This document shows, one piece after another, positions 28,440-63,538 of a DNA stretch of 64,000 bases; position 1 is the first letter of the stretch; each line of letters opens with the position of its first letter. A program made the translations under genes and the position numbers. The notes under the pieces were generated by a model. That model saw only the letters and a program-made list of their open reading frames with translations, made no database searches and was not told the DNA's origin. The stretch is from Cricetomys ansorgei (lineage: Eukaryota; Chordata; Mammalia; Rodentia; Nesomyidae). The stretch lies in assembly GCA_026225945.1 (NCBI GenBank), contig JAMJFZ010000029.1, forward strand, positions 1-64,000, read 5' to 3'.

Positions 28440-28742
28440 ATAGTACACCTGCTGTGGCTGCTCAGCAAAGAAGAATAAGGAAACATATTCATATGGAGAA
28501 ACCTTTCCAGACCTCAGGAGAGGGAACCACTTTCATGGCCAATGCCATATTCAATAGTAGATCCTTAAACATCAGAGCTCAGTTATTTTGTTGATTCAGA
28601 ACAACCCAGGTGTAGATTATAAGAAATTGAATATGCTCTATAGAAATCCAAAACCTACAGAAAATATGAAACCCCAAGTCCAAAAAGACCCTCACCCAAC
28701 ATTGCACAAAACAATTATTTTATACTTGACTAAAAATAATCT
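28440..28742. mobile_element. LTR-like element, copy 2
   Basis: Duplicate of the element at 9,820-10,121; same landmarks, several substitutions. Confidence 0.45.
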
Positions 28743-30082: not shown

Positions 30083-30248
30083 AGCAAAGAGTGATGATGT
30101 ACACCTAAAATCCTAGTACCCAGGAAGCAGTGAATGTTTGACTTTTACATATATAAGGTAAACCAAGCCACCATAGTGAGATTTGTGACAATATAGACTA
30201 GATTGTGACTTCTGTCTCAAGTACAGCAAGAACAACAACAAAAATACC
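30083..30248 (+). mobile_element. Old B1-like SINE, copy 2
   Basis: Same element as at 11,533-11,693, in the second duplication copy. Confidence 0.6.
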
Positions 30249-32004
30249 TAATATTCATGGTCAAATATCACTTATACCTGGAATGACAATTGTCAGCATA
30301 GTGAAATAAAGAGAGGTGCAATAGAGGCCTTCATATACTAGCAGTAACCAACATCTGGATAACTGGGCTTAAGGCCTACCCAAAAAGAAGTAACTAATGC
30401 AAGAAGGAAATCTAGTAAACCAAACAGAGTTACTCCCATCGTCAATCGTAGAATTCCTACCCATCATTTCCTAGAACAACATAATTTAAAACTATATTCC
30501 TCACACTATATGCCCTTACACTAATAAATAAATGTAGCACTACACCCTGATTGAAGCGCCTTTCCTTTGGGACAGATATTATCACAGTAAATCACAATTT
30601 GTTCAAATGGAGACAAGAATATTTCATGGAATGCACAGGTCCAGTGGAAATATTTATTGCATAACTCTGTATGAATAGCTATGCAACCAGTACAAAGAAG
30701 TATCTGAAAGAATGTAAGAGTAGTGGACAAAGAAGTGTGTTGAAAGATATTGTCTTCTGAAATAATAGAGGGTCTTCTCATTAATAATTATGTATTTGTT
30801 CTCTTTGTTGTGCTTTATTATTATATTTTAGTAAATGATTTCAGGATTCTTTCAGCAATTTTCAAAAGTAGTTTAATTGAGTGTCTCCAAACCTCATTCT
30901 TTTTTCTTCTCTACCTCTCTTTGTGTGTAATGTCTATCAGTAGTTCTACTGTGAAAAGAAAATGTAGCAAGAAGAAATAGAACCAGAATGAGAATAAGTA
31001 AGTAATGCTGGGAAACTGTAAATCTAACATCAAAAAAGTCAAAAAAGAACAATAACTTTGCTTCCTCGCACATATTAAGTTTTGTTAGCCTTGAACGATT
31101 CTGCCTGGGTTTTTCTCAACTTCTAGGCAGGTTGTAGTATCAGGTGCGTGGCCAGAGCGAGAGGAGACTGTGAAAATGCAATGTGTCCTTGTATACAATA
31201 TATTGTGCCAATTTTTTGTTTCTTTTTTTTCAGTGAACTTGATATTCATAGTTACTATGGTTGATTTTACCCCACAAATATGAAGAAAATAAGTCCTTAT
31301 GTCTTCTCACCATTTAGACTAGTATAAAATGAAATGTGAATATGAGGAAAGGTGGAAGAAATTAAAAGACATTGATTTTTGTGTTGTTGAAAATAAACAG
31401 AGGAAGTGGTGTAGTCCAGACTTTATTTCAATGTTGGGAGAATCTGATGAAATATTAGCACTATTTTGTGATTACGTAGAGACACAAGAGAATCAATCAA
31501 GAAACAATTTCAGGTTGTAATTCATAAAGGTTTTAGAAAATGAAATTATGAATTTAGGTGGTGCATATGCTTATAGTCAAAGAAGACACAAAATATCCAA
31601 TTAGCATTTGCACCAAAAAATAAAGAGGGAAAATGGAAAAAAATTAAAAAGCTATTCTGATATGACCTCAAATTGAATGGATGAGGCAAATTGCCTAGGA
31701 TTGAACAGAAAGCACAGCATACTGGGAAACACTGAGGATGGGGTTTCTGACATGATTTATCACTTAACTGAAGATAATGAATACTTGTTTTTAAGACTCT
31801 CATGATCAATTCATCTTTTCCTGAGTAAATCACAGTTTGTGATTAAGAAAACTCATTTTTAGACAAAGTAATGGAATCAAAATGTAGATATTAAATTTGG
31901 AATAATAAAATACAGTGATTTTTCAAAATGTAAGGTAGCAAGTTGTCAATAGGTATTTTATGCAAAAGGATTTTGAGAATCATGAAATCAAAATAATTTT
32001 TACA

Positions 32005-33056
32005 GCTTTGTTTAAGGAGTGCCTCAGTAAAACATGTGGATCTCTCTGTGAAGGGGATATAGAACAAATTTTGTGGGTTAGCTGGGTGAGGATGGGAATG
32101 TATCACCTTTGGGAAAAGGATAAGAGGCAGAGAATATAGGGAATACAGACTGGAATTGGAAGGTATTTTGGAGGTACACTTCAAAACTAGTACTATAGAA
32201 ACTCCCTGTCATTCACAAAGGTGACCATAGCGAAAAATCCTAGTAATGGGGAATAAGGGACCTGTGTTGGCCATCTTTTATAACCAGGAAAGGCTTACAG
32301 TAGTGCTACTGGGACACCAACTAAGACACAAAATCTTCGACCTACAAATTGCTCTGTCTTCAAGATGTATGGGGCCAATGGACAGGCAACAAAACAAGAG
32401 ATGTAACAGATGATTGACACTGCAGGGATGGCGAGCAACCATTCTCTGGATATCCCATAGATGATTCATAATGAAGTTTGGCTTTATTCATAGATCAGTG
32501 TCTAGTCTAATCTTCATCTGAGAAGCCTCCTCTTGTAGCTGATGAGAGCAGTTAGAGAGTCCCATAGCCAAACATTGGGTGGGGGTTAGAAAACAAGGAG
32601 TAAGAGAGCAGAGAGAAATTGTGGGGACAAATTGTGGGGACTAAAAAGTCGAACGCAGTAGGAGACATGCCTCATGGAATCAACTGTCCAGACACATCGT
32701 GGCTCAGAGACTGAAACAGTTGTCAGGGAGCTTGCATGGATCTGTGGTATGTCCCCCACATATATTTTAAGGGAATTATGCTACATATTCTTGTAGTACT
32801 CCTACAAGTTTAAGTAGTAGTTTTCTGACATATTTACCTGTCATATGGCACTGTTACATGATATGTTCTGATTTTCTTTTTTTCAAGAAAATCAGGAAGA
32901 GGAGCATAGGTGGATTTGAGGGAGAGGTGAGATGGGAAAGAACTTGGAGTAGTGGAGGGAGGGGAGCCTGCCTTCTGGATGTACAGTCCACAAGGCAAAA
33001 ATGAAATTAATGAAAAATAAAAAAATAAAAAGTAAGATATGTCATTAAAAAAAACC
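32005..33056 (+). mobile_element. L1 3' end (Lx-like 3' UTR), copy 2
   Basis: Copy-2 counterpart of 13,440-14,475, with a shorter A-tail near 33,046-33,054. Confidence 0.55.
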
Positions 33057-36000
33057 TCTATGTCATCTTCCTTTGAAAAGTAGAGCTGCATCCAGTTGAA
33101 TCATAGACCAATGGATTTACAACAAAAATGTATGAGAAACTATCCCTGAAATTTAAAAAACATGGACACTGGATTCAGGAAATTTTTTCACAGGAATCAC
33201 CAATTAGTTATTAAATTGTCTTACACAGGACAGAGAGGCAGGGGAGGAGAGGTAATGTTTATAAAAATGTAGATATTTGGGACTTTGAGGCATACATTGA
33301 AAAAAGAGCATAAGCTTTAAGAATTATGAAGAAATCCTTAATATCATTAATGAAAAGTATATACATCAAGTATTAACAAATAATAATTTTTACAAAGGAG
33401 TATAGATAATAAATATAACAATTGATTTCATTCCTTCTGGAAATATAAACTAATCTCAAAGCAAACCATAATGATCATATTGCTAAGTTTCTGTGCACTA
33501 TGGCTTTCTTTGTTGACACTAGTCCTTAGCATCAAGCCAAGAAATACAGCAGATGGGTACTGATAAACAGCAGAAGTCAGTGAGTCATCCATTTGGTTAG
33601 AAAAGATCAATAGATGGAAGTATATCGTCTTATGTAATTGGATTATAAAGTGGAACCTCCATCATTCTTATTCTTTCATAACAGAAAACAAAAGATCATG
33701 AAGAAATAGTGAACAGTAGTGTGTGACCCTTTTACTCTTACTTTCAAAATTCTACAATTTCGGTGAATACACCCATTCTATGAAGTTCACAAAGCTGAAG
33801 ATTGCTTCTTGGGACACAGTGGCAAGTTTGCATGGAAGAAAGGCTAGCTGTGTTATATGGGCCAAATGCTGTGAATGTGATTTTACAGAATGTCTAAAGA
33901 TTTCAAATTTCAATCAATTCTTCAAGACTTTTTTTCCATTTATTGAAAGAGTGGATTATCTTCGACATATTCAGTAAGGTGTTTTCTGTTTTAGAAAATA
34001 ATCCTTCAAGATTTCACAATAGGGAAATTATTATCTCAGATGTCTCACATCTCCATACCAAGCTTGTCAAAAACCCCACACAAAACAAGTCCCTTTCAAA
34101 ATATCATTTATTTTAGTTTTATTTTGTGACCCTATGAATTTAATCAGAGTTACATGTGTGACCATGGCTTTGTAACTAACTCTTATACCCTAATGGCCTC
34201 ACCAGTGTGAATAAAGGGAAATGTTAGAGCTCACGCTATTGAAAAACCATACTGATAAAAGGACCCTAGTTCAGGAATAATGGGAAAAATCTCATAGTCA
34301 ATGTTCTCATTTATGCATCCCATCAGACAGGCCAATTTCAGGCAAATATTCTAACTCTGAATATAATGAACAGCTCACCAGTTGGATGTAATCATATTAA
34401 AATGCAGTTGAACATATAAAGGTACCATGATTGTTTTATTTCATTGAATTCGACAGGCATACGTACTATCTCACTGAAATATATTTGTCATGTTTCAATT
34501 CATTAATGCTCCTGGTTTTTTTTTTAAACATTGTGAATGCATGTGCTGTTATATATGATGATTTCAGATATCTTCTTCAAATGTGTGAATTTTCTTTTAA
34601 CCATTTCCTCCATGTATCTCAAAGGTCCAAATATCTAAAATTTGATAAGTTTTACCTCTCTCCCTCTGATTCTCTTGTCTTCATAAGGCAATAAATACAC
34701 TCAATGATTTGTCCCTAAAGAATCTTTCCTTACTCCAATACCCAAATTTTAAAGCTCCTTCTGACCACTTATCCTAAATTTCTCCTGTTTAATCTCTTAA
34801 ATATAAGAATCTCTGACTTTCCTGCATATAGTTCTATATTATTCTGGAAAATGACATAGAAAGGTCTGAATGTATATCTTCAGTTTTTCTAAATACAATA
34901 AATTGTGATGATTAAAAATTTTGACAATTTTTTATCCAAAACCATCTGCAATGAGTATTAACAACAACATGCTCCTTCACTTTTTAAGTAAACAGTGTGT
35001 GTTTATTTTTCCTAAATTAGTACATATTTTTCAACATCAGTACACTATAAAATTCTGATTTTGTAAAGAAATCTATGGTTTAACCACATCAAGAATAATC
35101 AAACATGATGATTATGAAAAGTAAATATTATTAAAATTTTGGAAATATTATGAATATCTTATGATTTTCCAACCTCATGCTGTTCCTTTGACTTTGAATT
35201 CCTGTATCATCAAATTCAATTATCATCATCTATTAAGATTGAAATCAGAATACATTTATTTTATTATTTCGTTCTTCTCTCATCTTCCCACTTACGCATA
35301 ACAGTAATGGTTCCTTGACATTCCCAAGTGTTTTTGCTGGAGGAGAACATGGGTTATTTCTATTTACTACTTAACAGATATGTCTCACTGCCCCAAATAT
35401 CTAAAGATTGATCAGGTTTTGCTTTCCTCTCTACAGCCTTTTTAAAATCCTAGGTTAAAGCAACATTTCATTAGTGATTTCGCAAAGAGATGTTTTATAT
35501 GTCCAATGTGCATGTTCTTGCATTTTAATATGACTAAGTTTTTAGCTGCTCTTCTTGGAAATATAGATCCATGGTTTATCTGGACCAGCATACACTGGAA
35601 AAAAACTTTGGAATATTTGTTTATATATCTTTATTCTATAGTTAAATTTTGTTTATGAGCAAAGATATTTTATCACATGCTCATCAAAATGATTTTGTTT
35701 GGAAAATATACTACAAAATTCTCTTTAAAATAAGATTAATTGATATATATTTACTATTCACAAATCAATATCTACATTTAGGCTCCATTGCATTATAAAA
35801 CAGATATAAACTCTTTTTAAAACATACTGAATTTTAAACACTATTAAGTTGAATAAAACATGAGAGTCTGAAAAGACAATACTCTTTATATTTAGGTTGA
35901 ATAATGAATCATTTCAGAGGCCTCAATGTCGACAGAAATCTGTGGCTTTGGCTCCGTGTACAATCCTAAGCAATTTTCCTTATTTATTCAGTTGAAGGTT

Positions 36001-36970
36001 AAATCAGCACAAGTTTTTAAATTCTTCCTTGTTCCTTCTTCAGAACTCTTATTTATGTCATCACTGCTTCATAAATTTCATTGTTGATGCATAACTACAA
36101 GCAAATACATAAATTCAATTATTAATCTCATTTCTGAGAAGATTTTTAGAACACTAAATGCATTCATTTATTTACTGATTCTTTTATTTTTCTTCATAAT
36201 CACAGTGATATTAGTTCAGCAAAATTTCACAATAGTGAAATTTAAAAGATCGTTAATTTAAAAAACAAAAAATTCAATGTGTTTCCATTTTTTTCCAATT
36301 TTTAAATAATTTTTAAAATTTCAGTTCCTGCTAGTTTTAAAGTGAGAATCCTTAAGGACTCATTTTAGTCTTTCTTGCAGAATTCAACTGAACATAGTAG
36401 TACGAATTCTAAGTTCACTGAGCTATAAAATACCCAGAATATTGATGCAAAATATTCATATCAAGGTCATACTGAATCCTCAGAGCCTTCTCTTTCTCTC
36501 TTGGATAACCTTATACTAATACTTGGATCAAACAAGAAGAACAGACATCTTCCAAGGCAAATATAACTTTAAACACATGAAGAAGCATAGGGTGGTGTTT
36601 AACATCTGTGTCTCGATGTTGCTTTTGTACTTTTCCTCTTTAATCAACCTGGTTTTCCACATGTGTTTCTATTTCTCCCTATTTCTGAATTTAACCTTTC
36701 ACAAAATATGTATAGGAAAACTCCATGGTCAAACTCCAGAGAGTTGTGGTAGTTTGGGAGAGATTCAATTAAAACTATGTATGAAAATATATTTAAAAAC
36801 TCTGAAAGCATGTAATGAAGAATGATATTGTGTCAATTTCAAAAAGGAGCACAATCACACAATTAATAATGAGGTGAGGAAAAATAAAACATAGTAAACT
36901 AAAATATTGTCAATAATGTAAAATATTTATCCCCAGTACTGTTCACAATTAGGAAGAATATTCTTGCTAA
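33057..36970. other. No gene recognised (copy 2 counterpart of 14,476-18,588)
   Basis: The 100-codon frame at 36,523-36,825 is cut by TAG in copy 1 (near 18,054), so it shows no coding constraint. Confidence 0.5.
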
Positions 36971-37166
36971 AATGGCAAATATCAAATTATGTTCTTTATA
37001 TAATAGATTGTGTTTTAATGCACAATTTAGGGTTTCATTTGTAAAAGAAATTCATCACAGGTCTCCCATCATTCTTCCATCCATTCTCTCCCAGCAGGAG
37101 CTCCTCACTTGCCCCCATTCCCAAGAATATATGCTATTTTTCTTTTTTTTATTATCACATAAACAG

Positions 37167-37192
37167 ACACGCACACAAACATACAAACACAC

Positions 37193-37270
<78 letters not shown>
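37167..37270. repeat. (CA)n(TA)n microsatellite, expanded in copy 2
   Basis: Counterpart of 18,589-18,640, two to three times longer. Confidence 0.95.
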
Positions 37271-37274
<4 letters not shown>

Positions 37275-37299
37275 TATTTTCCAACTAGCAGAGTCTGTT

Positions 37300-38345
37300 T
37301 TTTGTTTTATGAGTATATATGGTTACACAATTGATAACTGAAGATATGTGTGATCCACTAGGGAAAATGGTTGGGGGAGAGGACTCCATCTGTTCTGCTG
37401 TAGAGGAAGGGACAAGACCAGAAGATTGGACTGGGAGGAATGGAGAAAGTGATAAGTATCTGCATTTGACATACAGGCCTTATCACTCTGCACTAGACAC
37501 CACTCAGGGAGCTCTTCTTTGAAAAAAGCTTGGTTCCCAATTCTCAGCAGTTATTAGCCTCTTCCAGATCTTTTTCTATGGTTGGGACAGCTTGAAATAG
37601 TTCCCTTCCATATTTACATGCTTATTTCTATCACCATTGTTACAGTCTTGATTGTAAGGTTTGTTTATAGGACAGACTATATGAGTGCAGACATTCTGTT
37701 ATTTTGCCTTTTAGAATCTTTCTAGTTTACTCTCCTGAAATAGTCTGTGTGCCTTAGATGGAGGAGCTCTGTTGCTGATATATCTATTGGGGCTGGGTTT
37801 CTTACGATCTATTTATCTGTGCCTTGTGTTCATTCGTGGGTTTTTGTCATGGTGTTTACTTGCTATAAAGAAAAGTGTCCTTACTGAAGAGTCATAGCTA
37901 TACAAATCTTGGCGGAAAAAACATTTAGAATGTATAATGGAATTAGGCTTATCTAGCAAAATGATGGGAGTAGGCAATTTTTATGAACCATAATCTTAAT
38001 AGATCTTGGTGGTTTAATAGACTCCCAGTACCAGATATGATTTTCCCTCCTGCTGAGGGCCCTATGATCCAATTAGACAGTTGTGTTTGCAACCAAGATG
38101 TGAATGTCAATCAGTGCTCCATTCTACAATTATTGTCATGTTGGTAATTCTTATGATTCATAGATGTTGCAGTCGGTAGAGTGGATAATTCCTTCCATCC
38201 CTTGTTAGCATTGATAGGATTTTTGAAAGCATCGATGCTAGACTACATGAAAGAAGCTTTCATGTCAAAGCCAGCTAGAATGATCTGTGTCCTGTGTCTT
38301 AGTGTGCACTATCTTCAGAAATAAAGGCCATGAAACAAAACAAAA
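37300..38345. mobile_element. L1-related interspersed repeat, copy 2
   Basis: Copy-2 counterpart of 18,700-19,695. Confidence 0.4.
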
Positions 38346-38490
38346 CAATAATATGAATAGTTTCTAGAGTCACTTGGCTTAATGTGACCAACCACTTAAA
38401 AGGAAGTGTTCTGTGTATGATATTTAAATTTTTATTAGTCTGATTTTCTTGTGGGACTCTTTGTTAGTCCTACTGGGTTGACTTCCTATA

Positions 38491-38528
<38 letters not shown>
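38491..38528. repeat. (CA)n microsatellite (copy 2)
   Basis: Counterpart of 19,862-19,913; a TA run follows at about 38,582-38,600. Confidence 0.95.
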
Positions 38529-38530
<2 letters not shown>

Positions 38531-38639
38531 GTAAACAGTGATAGTAGTTAATTAGAATTGACATATAGATAAAGGATAGTGTATATATATATATATATAC
38601 ATTAATATTTTATATAACTAAGTATAAATTAATGATTTC

Positions 38640-39960
38640 TTGAGGCCTTATCAAAAACTGTTGGGATAAATTTTCCATCTTCCTACTCGGTTATTGTCCC
38701 AATTGGAAATATTCACCCATGATTCCATTTCCAAATTCATTTCATCTTTAATCTGTTATTCTAAATTCTCTTAACAGCCTATGATCCTTTTATATTTTTT
38801 TGGTTTCTGTATTATTCCATGTTGTATATTCATATATGAAGATATGGATCTAGGAACAACACAAAAGAAAGAACATGGTGTGTTTATCTTTCTGTATCTG
38901 GGTTACAGCACTCAATACAATCTTTTCTAGTTTCATCCATTTAATGAAATATTAATGATTTCATTTTTCTTTATATCTAGAAGTATTCCATGGAATATAC
39001 ATACCACAGTTTGATTATCTATACACTGGTTATGTGACATTTATGTTGATTCCATTTCCTAGATATTGTGAATAGAGAATCAATGGACATGCAGGAACAA
39101 CTATATGTGGAGTAGGATGTTGAGTCATGTGGGCATATACCAAGGGATAATATAGTTGTGTCACATGAATTTACTCTTTGCTCTTTGAGAATTCTCCGTT
39201 GTGATTTATATAGTGAATGCACCAGTTTGTAATCCCAAGCAAAGTGAATGAGTTGCCTTTATTCCATACACTTCTAGCATATTTTATTAGTTATTCTGTT
39301 AAATTTGCCAATTTGAATGGAGTAAGATGGAATCTCTGAGTTGTTTTGATTTGTTTTTCATTAATTCCTGGGGACAGTAAACAGTTTTTGAGATATTATT
39401 TAGTAAATGTTTTCTTCTCCTGACCCTCTATTGTGGTCCCAAGATCGTTTCTCCAATAAGCCTTTTGGAATTTTTACTTTTATTTCTTGAGTTCTTTTCA
39501 TACTCTGGATATTATTCCTCTGTAAGATGTACAGATAGCAAATATTCTCTCCCATTCTGTTCACTTCCTATTGAATGTTTCCTGGGCTGTGAAGAAACTT
39601 TATAACATTTTGTAATACTCTGATCAATTGTTGAACTGAATTCTTTTGAAAATGGAGTCCTGTGCAAGAAGTTCTTCACATTATTCTGTAGGCTAATTGA
39701 CATGTTCTCTTCTTAGCAATCTCAGTGTTTCAGATTTCATGTTTATGTCATTGATCCATTTGGATTTAATTTTTGTGCAAGGTGATTGATGTAAGTTTAC
39801 TTGTCTACTTTCATTCCTCTCACACAAACATCCAATTTTTCCTGAACCAATTGTTGAAGATATTTTTTCTCCAGTTTCTTTTTGACATATTTGTCAAATA
39901 TTTTTAGAAGAAAAAATATTTACTTCAACAAGGCAGCTTAATTTTATTTAAAAATATTTC
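38640..39960 (-). mobile_element. L1 fragment, antisense (copy 2, fuller)
   Basis: Same L1 piece as at 20,060-20,800 but with the middle kept (GTATTCCATGGAATATACATACC, GGCATATACCAAGGGATAATA, GGAATCTCTGAGTTGTTTTG), in the order expected for reversed ORF2. Frames are broken. Confidence 0.65.
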
Positions 39961-40603
39961 TTTCAATGACTTTTAAAATTTTGATGTATTGTCATTATTT
40001 TGAATCCTGGTAATGACAGGGGAATTAAGACTGGTAGGAGGTGACAATCCTGAAATGTCAATTGTCCTTCACAGTTGAACAGTTATTGTGAGTCCAAGTC
40101 AAACTACTGCTGGACAAATAAGTTGATGAATAAAACACCTTCTGAGAATGGCAGTAATTGAATAAAATAAACTGTATAAAAAGTCTGAATCTCAGAATAC
40201 AGACACAAGGCAGAATTCAGTACTTTTCCAATAGTGAAATTTAAACCTACACTATTTATGACTTTGTTTTCTGATACTTTCCATTGTTTTTCAATGTGGA
40301 TGATAAGAGATTTTAATATTTTTTGTATATAATTGTGGAATTTTTTGAAATTAGCCTGTGAAGGAGTGTAGCATTTTTCAAGTTAAATACTATTAAGTTA
40401 CTTTCCACATACTCTTTCCTCCATCCAGCCACTCCTGTCCATCAAACTTCTCTCATATCCCCTTTACTCTCCAGGTGGTATCCTGTCTTTATTGGTTGTT
40501 ATTGTTACATATATATACATAATGCCTACGCATGTGTATATAAAATATTTTCATACAACATAGTTAATCTGTTTTGTTGATTGTATATATTGCTTCAATG
40601 TTG

Positions 40604-42287: not shown

Positions 42288-42436
42288 ACTGGTTGTTGCT
42301 GAAAGGTGCATGCCTTTCAACTCAGCACTTTCGAGGCAGAAGAAGGCAGCTCTCCGTGAGTTTGAGGCCAGCATGGTCTACAGAATGATTTCCAGGACAG
42401 CCAGAGTTATGCAGAGAAAGCCTGTGTCAAAAAATT
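42288..42436 (+). mobile_element. B1 SINE
   Basis: GGTGCATGCCTTTCAACTCAGCACTTTCGAGGC, GAGTTTGAGGCCAGCATGGTCTACAGA and CCAGGACAGCCAGAGTTAT are B1 landmarks in order, ending in an A-rich tail. Confidence 0.88.
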
Positions 42437-49177: not shown

Positions 49178-49372
49178 TTGTTTCTTTTCTTTTCTTTTCT
49201 TTTTTCTTTTCTTATCTTTTGTTTTCTTTTGTTTTTTCGAGACCCAGTTTCTCTGTTGTACTGCTGGCTGTCCTGGAAATCACCCTGTTGATCAGGCTGC
49301 CCTCAAACTCAAAGAGATCCAGGTGTCTGTGCCTCCTAGTGTTTTCATTAAAGTGTGCACTGCAACCACTCA
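49178..49372 (-). mobile_element. B1 SINE, reverse, with T-rich head
   Basis: Antisense B1: TTTTTCGAGACCCAGTTTCTCTG, GCTGGCTGTCCTGGAAATCACC, CTGCCCTCAAACTCAAAGAGATCC, GCCTCCTAGTG. The TTTTC-repeat tract at 49,178-49,235 is its expanded A-tail. It interrupts the module at 48,380-50,060. Confidence 0.85.
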
Positions 49373-50799: not shown

Positions 50800-50806
50800 T
50801 ATAAAT
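50800..50806 (+). promoter_or_regulatory. TATA box of the lipocalin gene
   Basis: TATAAAT, 94 bases before the exon 1 ATG. Transcription would start near 50,830, leaving a 5' UTR of about 60 bases, usual for this family. No palindromic steroid-receptor element was seen in the 250 bases upstream. Confidence 0.55.
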
Positions 50807-50893: not shown

Positions 50894-50959
50894 ATGAGAA
50901 GACTTTTATTAGCTTCTCTATTTTGTTTGGTTTTGGTGAAGGCTGAGACTCCTTTACAG
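50894..50959 (+). CDS. Lipocalin exon 1 (coding part): signal peptide
   Basis: Encodes 22 residues. [17 protein letters not shown] is a textbook signal peptide with V-K-A before the likely cleavage site, followed by E-T-P-L-Q. The donor is CAG|GTAACA, phase 0, the position where lipocalin exon 1 normally ends, just before the GxW motif. The ATG was chosen because it opens the signal peptide and lies about 94 bases after a TATA box. Reading past the donor meets TGA within six codons. Confidence 0.8.
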
Positions 50960-53900
50960 GTAACATGGGTAGGCTGACTTGTGTTTCTGGGGGTACTAGG
51001 TATATAATTTTAGAATATGTTTCATTTATTACCTGAGTTTCAATGTGTTTCGATGAGCATATTGTTTCATACTACTCTGTTGTCGAAACCATATGGCATT
51101 TAATCTCCTATTTTGTCTGAGTTGCATTCTTCCTGGGGTAAGAATGAATGAAAAATAAGTTTTTGCATTTTGTGTCTTCTCAATTTATTTTACTGAAAAA
51201 CACTATTAATTTTACTTTTTAAAGAATTGAAGTACATGCTTGGGTGTTATATTTCATAGTTCAAAGAGATTCAATGTAGAAACTCTAATAAGTACACGAG
51301 AAAATATGAAGTTAACATACTGCGTAATACCTATTAAATATAATATACTTCTTCATAAAGTATATTATTCATAGCAGTATGAAGAGTAACTATCAATTTT
51401 GATTCAGGATCATATATGAATTTAATGTCTTATAATTCTACTTTTATGGATAATGAATGTATATTTTGTTCCAATCACTCAGCTGTATCTCCCATAAAGA
51501 TGGTAAAATTTTTGTAAATGTGCATGTATGGAGTTTTGAGGATTTTTTGTGAATGTGGGTGTTCTTGTTCTTCAATACACATGTGGAAGTTAGAGTAAAA
51601 TATTATACTTTTGCTCTGTATAATGTCTGGCTGTGGGTTTCTGCACCCACATTCATCTGTTGTCAGAGGAAGCCTCACTGATGAAGGGTAAGAAGGATGA
51701 TAAGAGTCAGAGGGTATTGAGGACACCAGGAGTATATGGCCCACTGAATCAACTAAGCGGGGCTCATATGGGCTCAGATACTTAAGTGGCAAACACGGAG
51801 GCTGAGTAGGTCTGTACCAGGAACTCAGCCTATATGTTGTGACTGTTCACCTGTTTTTTATGAGACTCCTAGCAGTGTGAGTTGTGTCCCTGACTTTTGC
51901 CTGTTCTTGTTACTCTTTTCCTTCTATAGGTTTACTTTGTCCAGCCTCAATATGAAGGCTTTTGCCTTGTCATATTATATCTTATTTTGTTGGGTTTTGT
52001 TGTTTTTTTCTTGGTAACCTGATCTTTTCTGAAGGGAATCATAAGGGAAATGGATCTGGACAATAGAAGAGATGTGAAGGAGCTGAGAGGAAGAGATGGA
52101 GGGGAAACTGTGTTCAGGATGTGTTGTATGAGAGATGAATCTATATTAAATGGAGACATTAGGATTCATTTCACTTTTTTCTCCTAGACTGAGAAGGGAT
52201 TTCATCTCCACTCTACAAGCAAGATCCTGCTGACAACCAGTTTCTCATTATTTTCTTGACTCTATGTCCCATATCACCATATGAGCACTAGGATTAAAGA
52301 CACAATGTACCATTTCTGTCTTTTCTTGAGATATTAACATTTGAACTCAAGCTATCAGGGATATCCAGCAAAAATTTTAAGCTCTTGTCTATTTCCTCAG
52401 TCTAACAGGGATAATTTCATCTCTTTCTGGAAAGGACATTATTGGAATGGAGATCTTGAGGAAAATCAGGCACTGGCTTTGAAAACAAGTTCAATTTTCA
52501 AAAATACCTATTACTTTTTAATTTATTTTTAATACAGCTAGACAATTGCATTTTTTCTTGGCTGCAATTTGATCATTTAGGCCTCATGCTCCACTCTTTT
52601 TTTCTGCTGGAAGTCTATACAGGACTTATTTACAAAAAATAGCCTTCATTTCTTTTATGCACAACTTAAGGCCATTATCATTGATCACATAAGTTCATCA
52701 TGTTATCAAATAAAACATTAATCAATTTCAAGGAAAAACAGACAATGATTATGCTGTATCCACATCTGTTCAAATTTTTAGGTTTATATCAGTTGAAAAT
52801 GTCACAACTAATTCACTGTTACCAGCCCTGTTTTCATTCTATAAGGACTATGAGAAGTTTGCTAATAGAAACTGTATTACATGCATTGATTTGATATTTC
52901 AATTTATTTAAACAAAGTAGATACAGTGAGTACAGTAGATTTTGTAGAAAATATGGCAGGCTGATATAATTGTCATTTTGTATTAGTTTTCAGGCAAATT
53001 TAATACCATTTATTTATCATCAAATAATGTGGGACAAATAGAAGAAAATGGTCAAGCAAGGATGTTCATGCGAGAAGTTAAGATTTTTAATATGTATAGA
53101 AGAATGAACTTGACTGTCTATGTCAGGTAAGCAAAATTTATCCAGTAGAAGAAAAAGCAATTTAGGGTGAGAATTGCTATATCTGACATGAAGCAAGATT
53201 TTTATTAAATAAATCACTATTTTTCTCTTTCTTCTCAACTTATATAATTTATAAAATGTATCCAAAACCCACTTCCCATCCCTCCACACCCCCATTTTCC
53301 TCTTTCTCCCATCTCCCCTAGATTTACCCTTTTCATAATCTACAAACATCCAGGCTCCCAGGGCTTCAGAACAATCAAGGCATACCTTAGTGGGATGTAA
53401 TGAGGCTAACAATCAATCCTTAAATCAAGGGTTTTCAAGGAAGCTCAGCAGGAAAATGATCTCTAGGAAAGGTAAAATTACCAGAGACCCTCCACTCCAG
53501 CTTGTAGGTGGTTTCGAAAGATACCAGTCAAGACAGCTATGAGATGTATTTAGTAGGGACGCTAGGTTCCATGTGTCTACGGATTCAGACTCTGTGGGCC
53601 CCTACAAAGGCTAATCAGTTCACAATGTGGGACTTGTTCTACTGGTATCCTAAGCCACTCTGGTGTATGTCATCCATCCTTTCCATCTTCCATGAGATTC
53701 CCAGATCTCTGCATGATATTTTGCAGTGAGACTAGAGAAATTTGGCCCTAAGCCTTTAGATATGCTCCTCGCAGTTGCTGGACGGGGCCTTCAGGGTGAG
53801 GACTTTGTTAGGTACCTATATATAAGCAGGGCATGACATCATTAGAAATTAACTCTGTGTTTTCCAATCTTTAGTTCCTGTACTCTTCTGTAGTTGCAGG

Positions 53901-56900
53901 TAGATGTTCCCTCAATTGGTACAGAGTTGTGCCTTTCTGTTGTCAATGAGGATCTTGCTGGACAGATAAGTCATAATTCACAGAATTTGTGGGTAGGATG
54001 GTGTCCTAGTCTTGTCACTGGAATACTTGCCTGGCCACAGTACAAGGCCTGTTCAGGCTCCCTATCCCAATTAACTGGGGATCCTAGCTGGGGTCTCCAT
54101 CAAAGATTGCTGTGAGTTTCTAATACACTATGTCTCCCAATTTTTCCCAAAATTCTTGTACTTTCTCCATATATTCTCTCCCTCCCTCCCTCTCTGCATG
54201 GTGGCCTGGTGGACTACTCCACTTGCGTTTCTATCCTTGTCTAACCTACCTGAAACTTATGTTTTAATTTCACTCCAACAGGGAGATCCCTGTGTTCATA
54301 CTTGTGCCCTCTTCATTGAGTGATTTTTTTATACCTACACATACTAGTACCTTTTTCCTATGCTTAGCATTAGTATCATCATATAAGTGAGTACGTAATA
54401 TGTCTGTCTTTCTAGGACATTTTTTCCTCACTCAACATGATTTTTTTTCTTTAGTTTGATCCATTTGCCAGCAAAGTCAATGGTGCCATTTTATTAAAAG
54501 CTGAGTAATACCCATTGTGTAAATGTAACACAATTTCCTTAGCTGAGGGATATCTAGTTTTTTTCCAATTTCTGGGTATTATGAAAAAAACTGCTTTAAA
54601 CATATTTGAACATGTGTCCTTCTGGTAGGATGGAGCATCCTTTGAGTATGTGCCCAGAATGTTATAGCAAGGTGTTCCAAATTCCTAAGGAACTGCTATG
54701 TTGATTTCCATAATGGCTATACAAGTTTTCAATTCCACCATCAAGTAGGAGTTTTACTCTTTATCCACATCACACCAGCATTCTACTTTGTGTTACTGAT
54801 CTTAGTCATTCTGACTGTTGTAAGATGGAATCTCAAAGTGGTTTTGATTTGCATATCCCTAATTACTATGGATGAAACATTTCTTAAGGTGTTTCTCAGC
54901 AATTTTGGATTCCTATTCTATTCTTTGTCTAGATCTATAACCCATATTTTTTAATTGAATTTTATTGATGTCTACTTTCTTGAGTTCTTTACATATTTAG
55001 GTATATATTAGGCCTTTATCAGAAGTGGAGTTGGTGAATATCTTTTCCCATACTTTAGGTTGCCAGTTTATCTTATTGACAGTGTCCTTTGCCTTACAGA
55101 AACATTTCATTTGGTCTCATTTAAAAATCTTTGTTCACAGTGCCTAAGCTATTGGTATTCTGTTCAGAAAGCTGTCCCCTGTGCCAATATGTACCTAATT
55201 TCTCTTCTATCATGTTCAATGTATCTGGTTTTATGTTCATGATCCACTTGAACTTGAATTTTGTGTATGATGATAAATATGAATCAATCTGCATTTTTCA
55301 ACAGTGAGCCACCCAAATAGACCAGTACCATATGTTAAAGATGCTTTCTTTTTTCAATTGTATACTTATGGATTCTTTATCGAAGATCAGGTGTCCCTAA
55401 GTACATGGGTCTATGTCTGGATATGCAATTTAGTTCGACTGATGAACATGTCTGGTTTTATGCCAGTACTGTGCTATTTTTATTACTCTAGTTGTGTAGT
55501 ATACACTGAGATCAGGAATAGTGATGTCTCCAAAAGTTTTTTTTTTTTTTAGGATTACTTTGGGTACTCTGGTTTTTGCTTTTCCAGAAGAATTTGAGTA
55601 TTTTCCCTTAAAGGTCTGTAAAGAATTGTATTGGTATTTTCAAAGGGATGGAGTTGTATCTGTGGATTGCCTTTGGTTAGATTACAATATTTACTTCGTT
55701 GACCCTACCAATCCAGGAGCATGGATATCTTTCCACTCTGAAATCTTCAATTTCCTTCTTCTACGTCTTAAAATTTTTCACATACAAAGCTTTCATTTGC
55801 GTGGTTAAACTCAGCCCCATGATATTGTATGTTATCTGTGGCTATTTTGAAAGGAGTTGTTTCCCTGATTTCTTTCTCAGGTCATTTGTCATTTGTATAT
55901 AGGAGGTTTACTGATTTTTTGAGTTGATCTTGTAGTCTGCCACTTTAAAGAAGTGGTTTAACAGCGATTACAGTTCCCTGGTAGAATTTTTGGAGTCACT
56001 TATATATACTAACATATCATCTGCAAATAATGATACATTGAATTCCGTTTTCCATATTCCATTCATGTGATTACCTAATAGTTGTCTTGTTGCTCTAGGT
56101 AGGACTTCATGTATTGTATTGAATAGGGAGAGATAACAACGTTTTCTTGTTCCTCATTTAAGTGCACTTGCTTTGAGCTTAGCTCCATTAATTTGATGCT
56201 GGCTGTAGGGTTGCTGTAAACTTCCTTTATTATGTTTAGGTATGTTCCTTGTGTCTCTAATCTCTCAAAGACTTTTATCATGAAGGGTGTTAGATTTTGT
56301 CAAGACTTTTTTGTATCTACTAAAAGATCATTTGTCTTTATTTCAGTTTGTTTATATGGTGGATTACATTGACTGATTTTGGCATGCTGAACCAACCATT
56401 ATTCCCTGGGAAGAAGCCTATTAGATAATGGTGGATGATCTTTATGATGTGTTGCTGAATCTCGTTTGCCAGTAATTTGTTGAGTGTTTTTGCATTGATA
56501 TGTTCATGAGGGAAATTGGACTGTAATTCTCTTACTCTGTTGAATTCTTGAGTGGTTTGGTTATCAGGGTAACTGTGGAATTTTTCAATGAGTTTAGCAG
56601 TCTTTCATCTATTTCTACTTTGTGGATTACTTTGATGATTATTGTAGCAATATACCTACTGTGGTTGCTCAACAAGGAGGGCATGCAGGCATTTCCATAG
56701 GTGCAGACTTTGCCAGACTTCACCAGAAGGAACCACCATAAAGGCAGGCAACATATTCAAGAATGGAATACTAAGCATCTGAACTCAGCTATTATTTTTT
56801 GATTCAGAATTCTTCATGTGTTCTACTGAGAGCATGTGCAGATCATAAGGAATCAAACATCTCCCACATTAATGCAACACCTGCAGACAAAACAAAATGC

Positions 56901-59900
56901 CAAGGCTTATGCAGCACCCCACCCAACAGTGTACAAAGTAATTATTTTAAACACAGCAAAAAATAATCATCTAAAAAAGAGAATTGGTTTTAACTCTTCT
57001 GTTAATGTCTGATAGAATTCTGCACTAAACTATTTTACCCTTGTTTGCTTGTTTGGTAGAATATTTTAAAGATTGTGCCCTTTCTCCTTGTGTTTATTGG
57101 TCTATTCAAATTGTTTATCTGATCTTAGTCTAACTGTTGGTAGGTGGGCTCTATAGAAAAAATTGTCCATTTATTTTAGATTTTCAAACTTTGTGGAACA
57201 TAGGTTTTCAAAGTATGCCCAAATGATTCTTTACACTTCCTCAGTGTCTGCATTTATATCCCTTTTTTGTCTCTGATTTTGTTTATTTGGATATTCTCTA
57301 TCCATTTTTTAATTAATTTGGATAGGACATTGTCTATCTAATTGATTGCCTCAAAGACCTAACTCTTTTTTTCCATTGAGTCTTCAAAGTTTTCTCTTTG
57401 TTTCTATTTTATTTATTTCAGCTCTCAGATTTATTACTTCTTGTAATGTATTCCTCTTGGGTGTGGTTACTTCATTTTGTATTAGACCTTCCAAATGTGC
57501 TGTTAGTTTGCTAGTATGTGATCTGTCAACTCTTTTTGTGAATAGTTTTGAATTACAAATTTTGCTCTTAGCAATGCTAGAAAATAAATTTTTAATTGGA
57601 GCTATCATAGTCCTGATTGTGTAGGAGTCATGCTATAACTCATTATATTCAGAATATAATATAACTATCATAAATATTTTTACAAGCCTTAGTGATAGAA
57701 AATTTTGAATGAACTAGCTAACTTTTATCAAATATCAGAAGATGGAAAGAAATGAACCTCCACATTTAAATTAAAATTTGTGAAAATATCTGATAAGAAT
57801 AATTCGGTCTTGATTTGTTAAATATATTTTGGGAGCCTAAATCTCAAGACTTCTAAGATATCTTTATACTCATCACATACTTACGCATACTTCAGACTTA
57901 TTGTTCCTTCTTCCTAGTCCTAGCATGTTCTTTCATATATGCATGCAGCAAAATATGTGATTTTCCTTGAATTTTAATAATCTTTGAGATCTATATTGAA
58001 AAAAAATTAAAGCAGAGATGAATACCAGGATTTGGTGGTGCATGCCATTAAACTCAGCACTCAGCAGGCAGAGGCAGGCATATCTTTGTGAATTCCAGGC
58101 CAGCTTGGACTACTGAGTGAGTTTCAGAACAGCCAGAGTTACAACAGAAACCCTGACTCTAAAATTATAATATAAATGAAATAATAAAAGTAATAGTGCT
58201 ATTCTTTAGTCACAAGCTGTCAGATTTCTTGCAGTCTATAGAATGACAGAAGACATAAATATAGCAGTCTAATCTCAGCAGATAACACTACTCATTTCAT
58301 AGACTATGAAGGATAGTCACAGCAGGATTGAAGTACTTACATGGGGGAAAGTAGATACTTGTAGTTTATATAGGAAGTATGAGGAATGAGAAGTTAAATG
58401 TAGCTGGAAGAGTGCAAGAGTCTGCATTCTCTACTTCCTGACACAGGATTATAAAGAGCAGAGAAGGGAGGAAGTAGATATTTTTAGTTTATATAGGAAG
58501 TCTGACGAATGAGAAGCTAAATGTAGCTGGCAGAGTGCAAGAGTCTGCATTCTCTACTTCCTGGCACAGGATTATAAAGAGCAGAGAAGGGGGGAAGTAG
58601 ATACTTGTAGTTTATATGGGAAGTTTGAGGTATGAGAAGCTAAATATATCTGGAAGTGAGGAAGAGTCTGCATTCTCTATTTCCTGGCACAGAATTATCA
58701 AGAGCACAGAGGCTAGCCAATCTTAGGCGAAGCAGGCTTTGAGACTCAGTAAAAACAGTAGGCAATGTGACCCAGTGTAGCTTCTATTTCTATTTCCATC
58801 TTCCATGGTACACATCTAAGTCCTCACTGAGTAGGTGGAATGGCAGGGATGAAAATATTTAATATGAATTTATATTTATGTGGGTAAAAGTATCTCACTG
58901 CATTCTCCATTCTACCTTATGAAGCTATATAAATTGGGTTATATAATTAAATTCCAGGTTCTGTCAAACAGTACACATTATTGAATGTATATTGTAGCCA
59001 GATTAGAATGAAGAAGAACAAGAGGCTAGGTTGAGGACTCCCCATGAATAAAAAAACAAACAAAAAAACCTAGGGTTTTTTGTTTGTTTTGGTTTTGTTT
59101 TCTTTCATATGAGGAACACATAATGATGTGTTCTTCAGTATATAGAGTTTGGAATCCATGGTGGTTGATGAACAAAGTTAAATTTATGAGGCAGAAGGAA
59201 GAATGTCAGCAGCATTACCTCAGCAAATGAGACTGTTTATATCAAACAGGGAAGAACTGAAGCAGCAGGAATAAGGTTTCTATGAAGATGAAGTAATACT
59301 TAGAATTAATATGTGAGGTATGGGAAAATGGATGATGGATACAGCTGCAGAAGGCTACATGCAAGTTTTCAATTTGTACTTCTTGAAATTGTTTATTTAC
59401 ACAACTCTGTTTTATCTTTAAAAACCGTTTTATACCAGCTATCAGAATGTTGGTGACAATGAGTGACTGAGTTAGCCAATTACAATGAGGATGGAGGGTC
59501 TGGATATTTATCATGGAGGCTATGGACTTCAATATGGCTTCAAGGAATGGAAAGTTTCTTGTTGAAGGTACTAACATACTAAAACTGAAATGGAAATTTT
59601 ATAATTAATTTTTCCATTTTTTCTTTAATTTAGGAAATCTCTGACATGCTATAAGCACACAGCTATTGCACAGAGTATGGTTCCATTTGAATGTTTTCAC
59701 TTAAGTAAGTATAATTGCTTCTAGGATGGATACACAAAACCGTCTTAATAGTGCTTACAACATTATAGTCTATTATGTTTTTCTTCAATGGATCAAACAT
59801 TTGTGTGATTTTTTTTTACTGTGTCCCACTCCAGGTTGTTATCGTCATATGAAATGCAAGGAAAAGATAAGAGGAGATTATATCACTGGCTTCTGGGCAG

Positions 59901-62900
59901 TTATAGATGGATATCGTAACTTTCCAGAAATAAAATACAGAAATAATGCTGCCAGAATTGGGTATAGTAGGCAAAGTAAGATTTTATTCACTAATACTCA
60001 TAAAGTAGGACACTTAGCTCTTTCTCTAATCTTGTGCAAACTTTGCTTTGTGGCAAAAATTATGTACAAAGTCACTAAAGTCACTTTATATCCTCACACC
60101 TTGATTGGTATGAACTTTCTCTTACACTGTTGGATAAATGAATCTTAGAACAATGTTTGCTACATTTTATAGTGTGGAAATGATCTAAATTTCATGAATT
60201 ATTTATTTAACATACTGTTTGTTGAAGTAATTTTAATGAGAGCTTTTTCAATTATGGTTCATCATTTTATTGATAAAGGGAAAAATGTTATATAAAATTT
60301 TGTCAGATTAACTTAATTTTTGAGAAAAAAACTTTATCAAATGTCTACTGTTTATAAATACTAGTGTACATTTTGTACCCACTAGCATATATGCCTTTCA
60401 TGTGTACACAATTATAGTATGAATGATAGTTTTAGCTTTCTCACTTTGTGACAAAAACTCATGATATGATCAACTGTGAATCCAAAAATCACAGTAAATA
60501 TAATTCATTTTCTGAGAGGACTCAGGCCTTGATTGATCTCAGCTCTGACTCTCGTAATTGGTTTTCAGGATGGATTATCAAACCTGCATGCTTCCTATCT
60601 CTTAGAGATCAGATATCATCATGAATATGAATTTTATTGTTTTCACATTGTGCCATTCACTTTGATACTCACAAAAGTTCCAAATTTTAAAATGGTCATG
60701 TCTACCACAATTTCATCTACATGTTGCCGATTACACACTGGCCAATTCTTTGAGTTCTCCCCAATCAACTTATGAGGACTGATATGTTAGAAACAATGCA
60801 AAATACTTGAATTAATCACGCAAAAATTCTATGTGTGAAATAGACAAAAATAAATATTATTTCTTTATACTGTATTCAAAATTTACTCTGAATAGTTTTC
60901 CACTAAGTGTATGGCCAATAATGTTAAAGTGTTAAATCGCATATGAAATTAAATAAATGTTTTAAAAACCTGTAACTAAATACAAAGACAAAAACGATTA
61001 TGCAATATAAATTTCTAAATAAAATATTTTACACAAGAATTTATCTAGACAGGTGGTAGTGGTTCATGCTTTTTAATCCCAGCACTTGGGAGACAGAGGC
61101 AGGTAGAGATCTGTCAGTTCCAGACCAGCCTAGCCTACAGAGTGAATTCCCAGACAGCCAGAGTTATAATAGAGAAGCTCTATCTCAAGAATACCAAAAA
61201 AAGAATTTTTTCTAGAATTTAATTTCTTTTAAACTCTACAGTTGCAATTTCATATTATAATTTCAGAGCAAATATCAATTTCAATTTTATCATTCAGTGA
61301 TATCTACCATAAAGACAATAACTTTTTAAATAAATTTATATGTGCATGGATTATTACTCTGAGTACAGAATGTTGGTGCACATAATACTACAGGACATAT
61401 TTAAAAATATGAAGGAAAATAGGCAATTATGCATCCCTTTCACCTTTGACTATTTTATAAAGAATGCAAATTTTATCAAGTATTTGTCTGGAAATAAGAT
61501 TCTTTTAAAGGTTATAGTACACATTTCATAGCCTGATTATCCAACAAACACATGACAAATCTAAGTTTTATATTCCAATACCAAAACGTCAATTGTCATT
61601 TATAGCTAGAATGTCTTTAATAGCTAATAAGTAACATTTGACCTGTCTTACCATTGAATGTACTTAATTTTGTTGTATACATCTGTTCCTAGCTGTAAAT
61701 AATTGTTATTAACGACTAAGTAATTCAGGATATTATAGAGGATTCAGCTTCCTTTTGGTATTACATTTGTTTGAGTTATTTCTCTCTTCCATAGAAATAT
61801 GAGTATCAAATCATGGTAAATTAGCAACCTGAGTCTAGTAAAGTTTTGTTACATGAATATAAATGTAGGAATCAAAATTAATTTTGTATATTATTGGATG
61901 TGTTTGGAAACTTACAATAACCTGTGTTTTCAAATGAAATACTCTTTTCTTTGAGATATGATAGCATTTCCAAAAACACTGTGAGTCAATGTGTCAATAG
62001 TGTTAAAAATAATATAACTCAAAATAAATAGGAGAAGCAATCTTGTGATATACTGATGTACATTTTTTCTTCTCAGTGCCAACTCCTGTATTTATAAAAG
62101 TGTATTCTGTGTCAGGAAACATCATCTTATTAAGTTTTGATTATCAAAATGACCTGGATTATCCCACACATGTGACTGTAGCAATGGGTAAGTTCATATA
62201 ATTTGATATGTGAGAAACATGCTACCTAGCTTTTACTTAGAAGAAAACTTTTTTCTGTAATTTCTGTGCATTAAATATACTAATGCAGAAATCTAAACAT
62301 TCATGTGTTTTCAAATATTATCATGACTAAGGAAGAATCTTGCATTGCCTATGCAATAGGTATACACTTCCTCCTTGGTAGATATAACTGTCTTGAAATA
62401 AATAACACACAATCCTTAGAATATGAATTGGTACCAAAAGGCAGTAACCAATTAGAACTCAATGAAGCTCTTGTACTGTTTTCATGGTATATATCTACAC
62501 TTAACATCTGACCAGTATCAGTTAATTGGTTGGCACTCATCATGACTGAACAATCCCAATAACTATAATTCTTTGTCCTTATAACTATTTAAAGAGTGAC
62601 AAAGCTAATTTGTTCAATTAAATGTTATCTTCTCTTCAATTAAATGTTATATCTTCTCCAGATATAAGATCCTAAATAATAAAAGTCAACATTTAGCCTT
62701 AATATTTTCTCAATTCACCAGCTCATCTGTACAATAATTATAATGGTCCTGATATTACATCTATATATTGATATTAGGTTCTACAAATTTATTCTGAGAA
62801 AACAAAAGGAGTATTTAAAGTGTTCATGAATTTATAGTCTTTTAGAAAATATGAATAAATTAAGTGTGCCAAGTAAAATGTACTTCATGTTCTAATTTTT

Positions 62901-63538
62901 CATCAAGAACACCAACATATGGGAAATACATTTCAGGGAGAGACAGGTAACATAGAAAGATACGTTATTGGGATACTTCCAAATATCAGGTAAAAACATT
63001 ACAGTGTCCTGATTTGGCTTCAAATAATCACATCTTTGGGAATGAAAATATTGCAGGAGAAATTGTCTCTAATATTTGCCTTAGTATAAAAACTGAACAA
63101 GTAGCAAGACGGTGTGTATGAGACATTCACATGGATTCTGAGCTTATATTCTGAGGGGCATCCCTTTTCTCGTTTTGGTGAAAGATGTGTTTCAACAACT
63201 GACAGCAAAGTTTAATCAATTCAGAGTGTGGGTAATATTCTAATGGAAATCTCTTTTATCCTTCTGTAAATCTCAGCAAAAGGAGAAAATATCACTGATG
63301 AATCCTGGAATGAATATTTGAACATAAACAGGAAATTATCAATTCCTTTTACGAATATTTAAAATGTCTCCCAAGCAGGTAAATCACTGTTTTTCAGTGT
63401 AGAATAACCTGACACCAGAAGAGCTCATTGATTTCTTTTTAATTCCAATGTAATGTTGAGAAATAGGGATTAAAAAATCTATTAAGTTATGTTTGTTTTG
63501 ATTTGCAGACCTATGTCCTAAATGAAAACATGAGTCTT
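50894..63538 (+). CDS. Lipocalin gene, odorant-binding protein / aphrodisin / probasin type; in-frame stop in exon 5
   Basis: Six exons: 50894-50959, 52987-53126, 59634-59704, 62077-62187, 63277-63378, 63509-63538. All introns are GT-AG. Lengths 66/140/71/111/102 and phases 0/2/1/1/1 match the lipocalin gene pattern. The product would be a small secreted beta-barrel carrier of hydrophobic ligands such as odorants or pheromones (family knowledge). Visible features: signal peptide 1-17; SGKF at 24-27 in place of GxW; T-I-Y-L and I-E-E-N-G of the first strand and loop; N-L-T-V-Y-V strand; Cys74; L-L-S-F-D-Y strand (110-115); A-K-G-x-N-I-T-D-E-S-W start of the C-terminal helix. N63-L-T and N134-I-T are N-glycosylation sequons. 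Recalled probasin and aphrodisin fit without gaps from exon 4 onwards. TAA at 63360-63362 ends the frame at 157 residues; the frame beyond it would add 10 more and end D-L-C-P-K. The CxxxC of OBPs is missing. Could be functional and truncated, or a young pseudogene. Confidence 0.8.
51600..52165 (+). mobile_element. L1 3' UTR fragment in lipocalin intron 1
   Basis: ACACCAGGAGTATATGGCCC, CAACTAAGCGGGGCTCATA, GTCTGTACCAGGAACTCAGCC and GTGACTGTTCACCTG are L1 3' UTR text in sense. The 100 or so bases before 51,700 (GTCAGAGGAAGCCTCACTGATGA) look like L1 text in the opposite sense, so the fragment may be 5'-inverted. Confidence 0.6.
52987..53126 (+). CDS. Lipocalin exon 2: GxW-like motif and first two strands
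   Basis: 140 nt, phase 0 to 2. The acceptor is the TTAG at 52983-52986. Using the next AG (exon from 52994) breaks the frame, while this one joins exon 1 in frame and gives [10 protein letters not shown]. This corresponds to the lipocalin GxWxT start, with Phe27 in place of Trp. Then come I-E-E-N-G (40-44), a strand ending N-L-T-V-Y-V (63-68), and donor CAG|GTAAGC. The OBP/aphrodisin CxxxC pair expected near residues 55-59 is absent (I-F-N-M-Y). Confidence 0.78.
53205..57625 (-). mobile_element. L1 LINE, antisense, 5'-truncated
   Basis: Reads as the reverse complement of a rodent L1: 3' UTR (53,205-54,450), then ORF2 backwards. Recognisable pieces are the end of ORF2 (54,480-55,300), a reverse-transcriptase piece on the minus strand at 56,075-56,281 (M-I-K-V-F-E-R, Y-L-N-I-I-K-x-V-Y-S, S-P-Y) and the region before it at 57,384-57,608 ([11 protein letters not shown]). 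Many frameshifts and stops; dead. Split by an LTR-like insert at about 56,640-56,985. Lies in lipocalin intron 2. Confidence 0.85.
56640..56985. mobile_element. LTR-like insert inside the L1, also present in both duplication copies
   Basis: Interrupts L1 ORF2 sequence that resumes at about 56,990. Closely related stretches lie at about 9,820-10,121 and 28,440-28,742 (shared CTGTGGTTGCTCA-type, GCAGATCATAAG-type and CACCCAACA-type blocks). It can be bounded as TG...CA, which fits a solo LTR, but the family was not recognised. Confidence 0.45.
58026..58164 (+). mobile_element. B1 SINE in lipocalin intron 2
   Basis: TGGTGGTGCATGCCATTAAACTCAGCACTCAGCAGGCAGAGGCAGG, AATTCCAGGCCAGC, GAACAGCCAGAGTTACA. 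Confidence 0.87.
58341..58715. repeat. Tandem repeat, three units of about 123 bp
   Basis: GTAGATA starts at 58,351, 58,474 and 58,597 (period 123). Each unit carries TTTATAT-GGAAGT, TAAATGTAGCTGG-type, GAGTCTGCATTCTCTA and ACAG-ATTAT-A-GAGCA blocks. Units 1 and 2 are closest; unit 3 drifts. Intron 2 of the lipocalin gene; no open frame across it. Confidence 0.9.
59634..59704 (+). CDS. Lipocalin exon 3: strands C-D with the disulfide cysteine
   Basis: 71 nt, phase 2 to 1; family members have about 71-74 nt here. The acceptor is TTTAATTTAG and the donor is TTAA|GTAAGT. It reads [13 protein letters not shown] across the junction; Cys74 sits where OBP-type lipocalins keep the cysteine that bonds to the C-terminal one. 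The other two frames contain stops. The sequence is less conserved than in exons 2, 4 and 5, so the call rests mainly on length, phase and the Cys position. Confidence 0.68.
61046..61203 (+). mobile_element. B1 SINE in lipocalin intron 3
   Basis: GGTGGTAGTGGTTCATGC, AATCCCAGCACTTGGGAGACAGAGGCAGG, CCAGACCAGCC and CAGACAGCCAGAGTTATAATAGAG, followed by an A-rich tail. Confidence 0.9.
62077..62187 (+). CDS. Lipocalin exon 4: strands E-H
   Basis: 111 nt, exactly the family length, phase 1 to 1. The acceptor is TTTTCTTCTCAG and the donor is ATGG|GTAAGT. It contains V-F-I-K-V-Y, then [12 protein letters not shown] and ends V-T-V-A-M. Recalled probasin has L-L-F-D-Y-F-N at the same place. These strands line the ligand pocket in the family. 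Confidence 0.82.
62188..63276 (+). other. Lipocalin intron 4
   Basis: 1,089 bp from GTAAGT to CAG. No transposon recognised. Contains a 39-nt splice-bounded pseudo-exon candidate (about 62,908-62,946) that is not part of the family pattern. Confidence 0.7.
63277..63378 (+). CDS. Lipocalin exon 5: C-terminal helix, with in-frame TAA
   Basis: 102 nt, exactly the family length, phase 1 to 1. The acceptor is TAAATCTCAG and the donor is GCAG|GTAAAT. It reads [16 protein letters not shown], close to the recalled probasin A-K-G-x-x-L-T-K-D-E-M-x-E-Y-M-N. The codon after P-F-T-N-I is TAA (63360-63362), where aphrodisin has an ordinary residue. The frame then continues N-V-S-Q-A to the donor. The donor is intact and the rest of the exon aligns to the family, so the stop looks like a point change. 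Confidence 0.82.
63509..63538 (+). CDS. Lipocalin exon 6: D-L-C-P-K end, beyond the TAA
   Basis: Acceptor TTTGATTTGCAG. With the G left from exon 5 it reads D-L-C-P-K-stop (TGA 63523-63525), the family's D-x-C-P ending with the second disulfide cysteine. A GTAAGT donor follows at 63539, as expected if a 3' UTR exon lies further downstream, probably outside the window. If the exon 5 TAA is real, this exon is 3' untranslated. Confidence 0.72.

Follow-up and report, generated by a model that had tools for sequence, protein, structure and literature searches.

A divergent OBP/probasin-type lipocalin gene with an early stop, probably recently truncated and being lost

In the description of muroid probasin genes (Pbsn) given in PMC11940140, exons 2-5 measure 140, 68, 111 and 102 nt in nearly all genes, the stop normally lies in exon 6, exon 7 is a 3' UTR exon, and CxxxC is conserved in the protein. 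The CxxxC motif is also described as OBP-diagnostic in mice (PMC8476925). Bovine OBP (1obp, 1pbo) has neither CxxxC nor the conserved disulfide; according to PMC4841250, it still binds ligand without this disulfide, and its W17F variant, tested with the disulfide restored, was folded and ligand-binding. By counting, W17 is the GxW tryptophan. Here, we describe a lipocalin gene of six coding exons, located at positions 50894-63538 of the plus strand, at the 3' end of the window (the whole 64-kb stretch of DNA that was analysed). Its features are as follows.

50800-50805, plus strand: TATAAA, a possible TATA box about 94 bases 5' of the ATG (motif found, role inferred)
50894-50959, plus strand: exon 1, 66 nt; ATG and a 22-residue signal peptide, judged by eye
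52987-53126, plus strand: exon 2, 140 nt; G-K-F instead of GxW, without CxxxC; tblastn E 1.25e-05 to aphrodisin
59634-59704, plus strand: exon 3, 71 nt; bears Cys74 and Cys89; top of 133 phase-compatible candidates
62077-62187, plus strand: exon 4, 111 nt; based on splice sites and phase, size equal to Pbsn exon 4
63277-63378, plus strand: exon 5, 102 nt; holds the early stop; based on splice sites, Pbsn exon 5 size and tblastn 0.050 to Bos d 2
63360-63362, plus strand: in-frame TAA, codon 158 of the joined frame
63509-63538, plus strand: exon 6, 30 nt; D-L-C-P-K and the native stop, with a GTAAGT donor next

All exons have AG/GT borders and the exon phases (0, 2, 1, 1, 1) are compatible, in agreement with an earlier sequence-only reading, which had described six GT-AG exons with the frame joined through every junction. 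When scored with a consensus table, the donors rank between the 96.8 and the 99.9 percentile among plus-strand GT sites, with the exon 5 donor at 99.0 and the GTAAGT donor after exon 6 at 96.8. As in Pbsn, the native stop is in exon 6, at 63523-63525 (counted by hand), where it follows D-L-C-P-K, so the D-x-C-P end that the same reading had placed downstream of the TAA is indeed still encoded. The GTAAGT donor suggests that a further 3' UTR exon is to be expected. With six coding exons and a donor for another one, the gene fits the seven-exon layout of Pbsn; exons 2, 4 and 5 are of equal size (140, 111 and 102 nt), whereas exon 3 measures 71 nt instead of 68 nt. No flanking gene was identified in the 64-kb window by which the locus could be placed in the X-linked cluster of the rodent OBP/probasin group. 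Four diverged B1-like SINEs are present at 42305-42428, 49238-49369, 58033-58159 and 61056-61186, with about 75-81% of aligned columns equal to the consensus used, and three shuffles gave no hits; these elements point to a muroid rodent. Intron 2 contains about three tandem copies of a 123-base unit, 89% identical, at 58343-58710. There is also a tandem segmental duplication, 710-21451 and 21451-40603, of roughly 18.6-20 kb with aligned blocks that are 86-93% identical, and a scan of this duplication (710-40603) with an HMM that included the window gene gave no convincing lipocalin frame.

Solved structures were searched with phmmer, using the read-through protein in which the stop had been masked. 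Bos d 2 (1bj7) was the best match (E=3.4e-13, residues 20-167), and pig OBP (1.4e-10) and aphrodisin (1.7e-10) were matched as well, a full-length OBP-type homology that substantiates the initial recognition of a lipocalin gene. The sequence-only reading had also proposed a search with the 157-residue form that ends at the stop; this form still matched Bos d 2 among the solved structures (E=1.1e-09), but gave no match in Pfam. Another protein search with the stop-masked form, run without a known rodent lipocalin as positive control and thus of little weight, returned 12 candidates, none of them at E<=0.001, and in the literature we found nothing that could be tied to this gene. When random stretches of the window, as long as exons 1-5, were joined 200,000 times, 15 of the joins were open for 157 codons, thus the open frame is unlikely to have arisen by chance. 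A first HMM scan took in the window's own protein, with a risk of circularity, and in the rerun without it exon 4 was lost and exon 5 became weaker. This relatives-only HMM found exon 2 by itself (E=2e-10), gave a marginal hit for exon 5 (0.01) and did not detect exons 3 and 4 as separate frames. Among the 133 phase-compatible candidates for exon 3, the chosen one gave the highest joined score (70.2 bits); the second-best (70.0 bits) differs from it only by an earlier donor, and the next different one reached 65.9 bits. Scored alone, the exon 3 region was no better than a reverse-strand control, and its cysteine aligns at the family's place. Directly after exon 3 there is a 147-codon stop-to-stop open frame (59705-60148, plus strand), which is long for AT-rich DNA and has no Pfam match at E<=1. 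An alternative exon 3 inside this frame (59835-59915) was rejected, since no phase fits both exons 2 and 4, and it has no Pfam match either. The gene is a real OBP-type lipocalin gene; since it does not pass the tests for GxW, CxxxC, the tail disulfide and the Pfam cut-off, it is assigned to this class by homology and exon layout only.

The joined frame encodes 157 residues up to the TAA, followed by 10 further codons in frame and the native stop. Cys74 is present, and its C-terminal partner, Cys166, is encoded only past the TAA; the positions in the joined frame bear out the original suggestion that the stop removes this partner. According to the alignment, part of the ninth strand is lost together with the tail cysteine. 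Between N-I and D-x-C-P the alignment with the relatives has no gaps, indicating that the stop arose by residue replacement and not by an indel. With the start intact, this one in-frame stop, a disabling lesion by the standard applied to pseudogenes, is the sole lesion when frame, stops and splice dinucleotides are considered. Of the 168 codons, it affects the last 11, which make up the final 6.2% of the nonsense target. About 6% of first nonsense lesions would land there at random, and this location is a mild hint of a tolerated rather than a random truncation. The distance from the TAA is 16 nt to the end of exon 5 and, with the 30 nt of exon 6, 46 nt to the last known junction, as recomputed with the same outcome as before. 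Nonsense-mediated decay (NMD) usually follows a rule of 50-55 nt between stop and last junction. As 46 nt is below this distance, the transcript should survive NMD, and the geometry fits the escape that had been proposed.

The sequence-only reading had called the gene otherwise intact, with the stop as its only defect. This holds for frame, stops and splice dinucleotides, but not for conserved residues, since the window protein keeps 14 of 24 near-invariant columns (conserved in eight or more of the nine relatives), and lacks both GxW and CxxxC. Under a leave-one-out rule it keeps 54-63%, compared to 75-92% for the nine relatives. The GxW position reads G25-K-F27, with W in all nine relatives, and the aligned exon 2 stretch after strand B, the place of CxxxC, is without cysteine. 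Both positions of the disulfide are Cys in eight of the nine relatives. Even with its tail, the protein scores 15.9 bits with Pfam Lipocalin (PF00061), under the curated cut-off of 23 bits, whereas the four relatives scanned all pass (65.8-86.7 bits). In a tree of 10 sequences, the terminal branch of the window protein is the longest (1.98 versus 0.25-0.86 for the others), and this was also the case when exon 3 was left out (1.73 versus 0.29-0.74) and when the WAG and JTT models were used. Relative-rate tests gave more unique changes for the window protein in 14 of 14 runs, with p<0.05 in 5 of 7 using all columns and in 3 of 7 without exon 3; these comparisons are not independent and the excess is modest. 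The coding GC at codon positions 1, 2 and 3 is 35, 33 and 31%, near the window background of 30-36% and below the 40.8-41.4% given for Pbsn in PMC11940140. The gene is not otherwise typical, and its protein has drifted.

How long the gene could have been decaying was estimated by counting the targets for nonsense, splice or start, and frameshift lesions. For each unit of neutral divergence, a neutral gene of the same size is expected to collect 69-110 lesions, the exact number being a matter of the assumed indel rate, and at most one lesion limits neutral decay to about 0.04-0.07 (~0.05) substitutions per site (95%). A protein branch of almost 2 changes per residue is too long for this limit, thus most of the divergence took place under a selected frame, and it is only recently that the stop, or at least the release from constraint, came about.

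The explanation that we favor, with a probability of roughly 55%, is that this is a fast-evolving OBP/probasin-type gene that was recently truncated and is probably being lost. In this scenario, a muroid rodent has a divergent lipocalin gene whose frame would have been maintained by selection for most of the past, even as the protein changed fast, and a single stop would have arisen only recently, close to where exon 5 ends. We infer that the gene is transcribed and that its transcript would escape NMD, resulting in a 157-residue preprotein. The product would end inside or at the ninth strand, leaving Cys74 without partner and the tail not tied to the barrel, and with other family-conserved residues already lost, it would most likely be unstable or weakly functional, which would make this the first stage of gene loss. 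What counts against loss is that the lone lesion lies where truncation is best tolerated, that start, frame and splice dinucleotides are whole, that the relative-rate excess is modest, and that bovine OBP binds ligand without the same disulfide.

A serious, though less likely, alternative is that the truncation is tolerated and that the gene makes a functional, shorter carrier without the conserved disulfide and with a looser tail, in that respect like bovine OBP. The natural bovine protein has neither cysteine (1obp, 1pbo), and its variants without the disulfide or with W17F still bind ligand (PMC4841250), so neither the loss of the disulfide nor a W to F exchange alone forbids function. Stop positions at the 3' end vary among Pbsn genes too, as described in PMC11940140, though past the cysteine. 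The place of the lone lesion within the last 11 codons, at 46 nt from the last known junction, also suits a tolerated change. Against this, Cys is kept at both positions in eight of nine relatives, many other conserved residues are gone, and the loss of one partner only, together with part of the ninth strand, would leave an unpaired cysteine, unlike in bovine OBP. Because of the unpaired Cys74 and the many other conserved residues lost, we favor ongoing loss over this tolerated form.

One base-level feature in one assembly could also stem from an error in sequencing or assembly, or from a rare allele in the animal that was sequenced. We consider this unlikely, and an indel, the commonest long-read error, is not the cause, as the reading frame continues on either side of the stop and the distance to D-x-C-P has not changed. 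An older pseudogene, of which the true exon 3 went unrecognised and is itself broken, would fit the weak sequence support for exon 3 and the failure of the relatives-only HMM to find exons 3 and 4 alone. However, exon 3 as chosen is bordered by AG and GT, fits in phase, has a length of 71 nt (68 nt in probasin) and carries a cysteine in the family's place, and no better remnant was found between exons 2 and 4, which makes such a history very improbable. Hardly credible is a bypass of the stop by skipping of exon 5 or by readthrough. Exon 5 has 102 nt, a multiple of three, so joining exon 4 to exon 6 would leave the frame open as far as the native stop, with the D-x-C-P end retained, but skipping would remove the C-terminal helix and the ninth strand, the splice sites of exon 5 look normal, with the donor at the 99.0 percentile, and within the exon there is no alternative donor 5' of the stop. 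A TAA followed by A is not known to be a leaky readthrough context.

The gene is a clear example of a gene for chemical communication that has just suffered, or is just suffering, a first disabling change. Should the short form prove to be fixed and expressed, nature would have tested how far the OBP fold can do without its bracing by GxW, CxxxC and the tail disulfide. We only tentatively consider, as it seems doubtful, that this is a working rodent lipocalin without these three hallmarks of its group, having lost the tryptophan of GxW, the bridge of CxxxC and, because an early stop became fixed, the disulfide of the tail; if true, the carrier would be loosely closed, one cysteine of the barrel would be unpaired, and ligand release or dimerisation might be altered. 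If the gene is decaying, it would add a further loss to a group in which the birth and death of genes are well known.

With regard to known proteins, probasin forms the nearest branch in the tree, weakly (SH-aLRT 73.1, bootstrap 57), and this placement may be due to long-branch attraction. The window protein shares with probasin an AKG before the helix of exon 5, and 34 of 147 residues are identical to the rat sequence, but it lacks GxW, CxxxC and the C-terminal cysteine. The same three are present in Bos d 2, the best solved match (36 of 145 identical). Aphrodisin and the rodent OBPs (1e5p, 3fiq, mouse Obp1a) belong to the same OBP group, whose D-x-C ending is still encoded by the window gene, with identities of 34/147 for aphrodisin, 27/147 for rat OBP1F and 33/147 for Obp1a; rodent OBPs carry CxxxC, in contrast to the window protein. 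The missing CxxxC suggested membership of the CxxxC-free branch of pig, bovine and dog OBP, but this branch excludes the window protein (98.4/90). Bovine OBP is not its sister in the tree, and although both are without CxxxC and the conserved disulfide, bovine OBP lost both cysteines, keeps its tail and forms domain-swapped dimers, whereas the window product keeps one of the two and has no tail. For pinnipeds, PMC8474896 describes premature stops that are shared by all OBP homologues found, and for cetaceans homologues with missing exons. Gain and loss of OBP genes is well known, and the present case is an ordinary one for such a group of genes.
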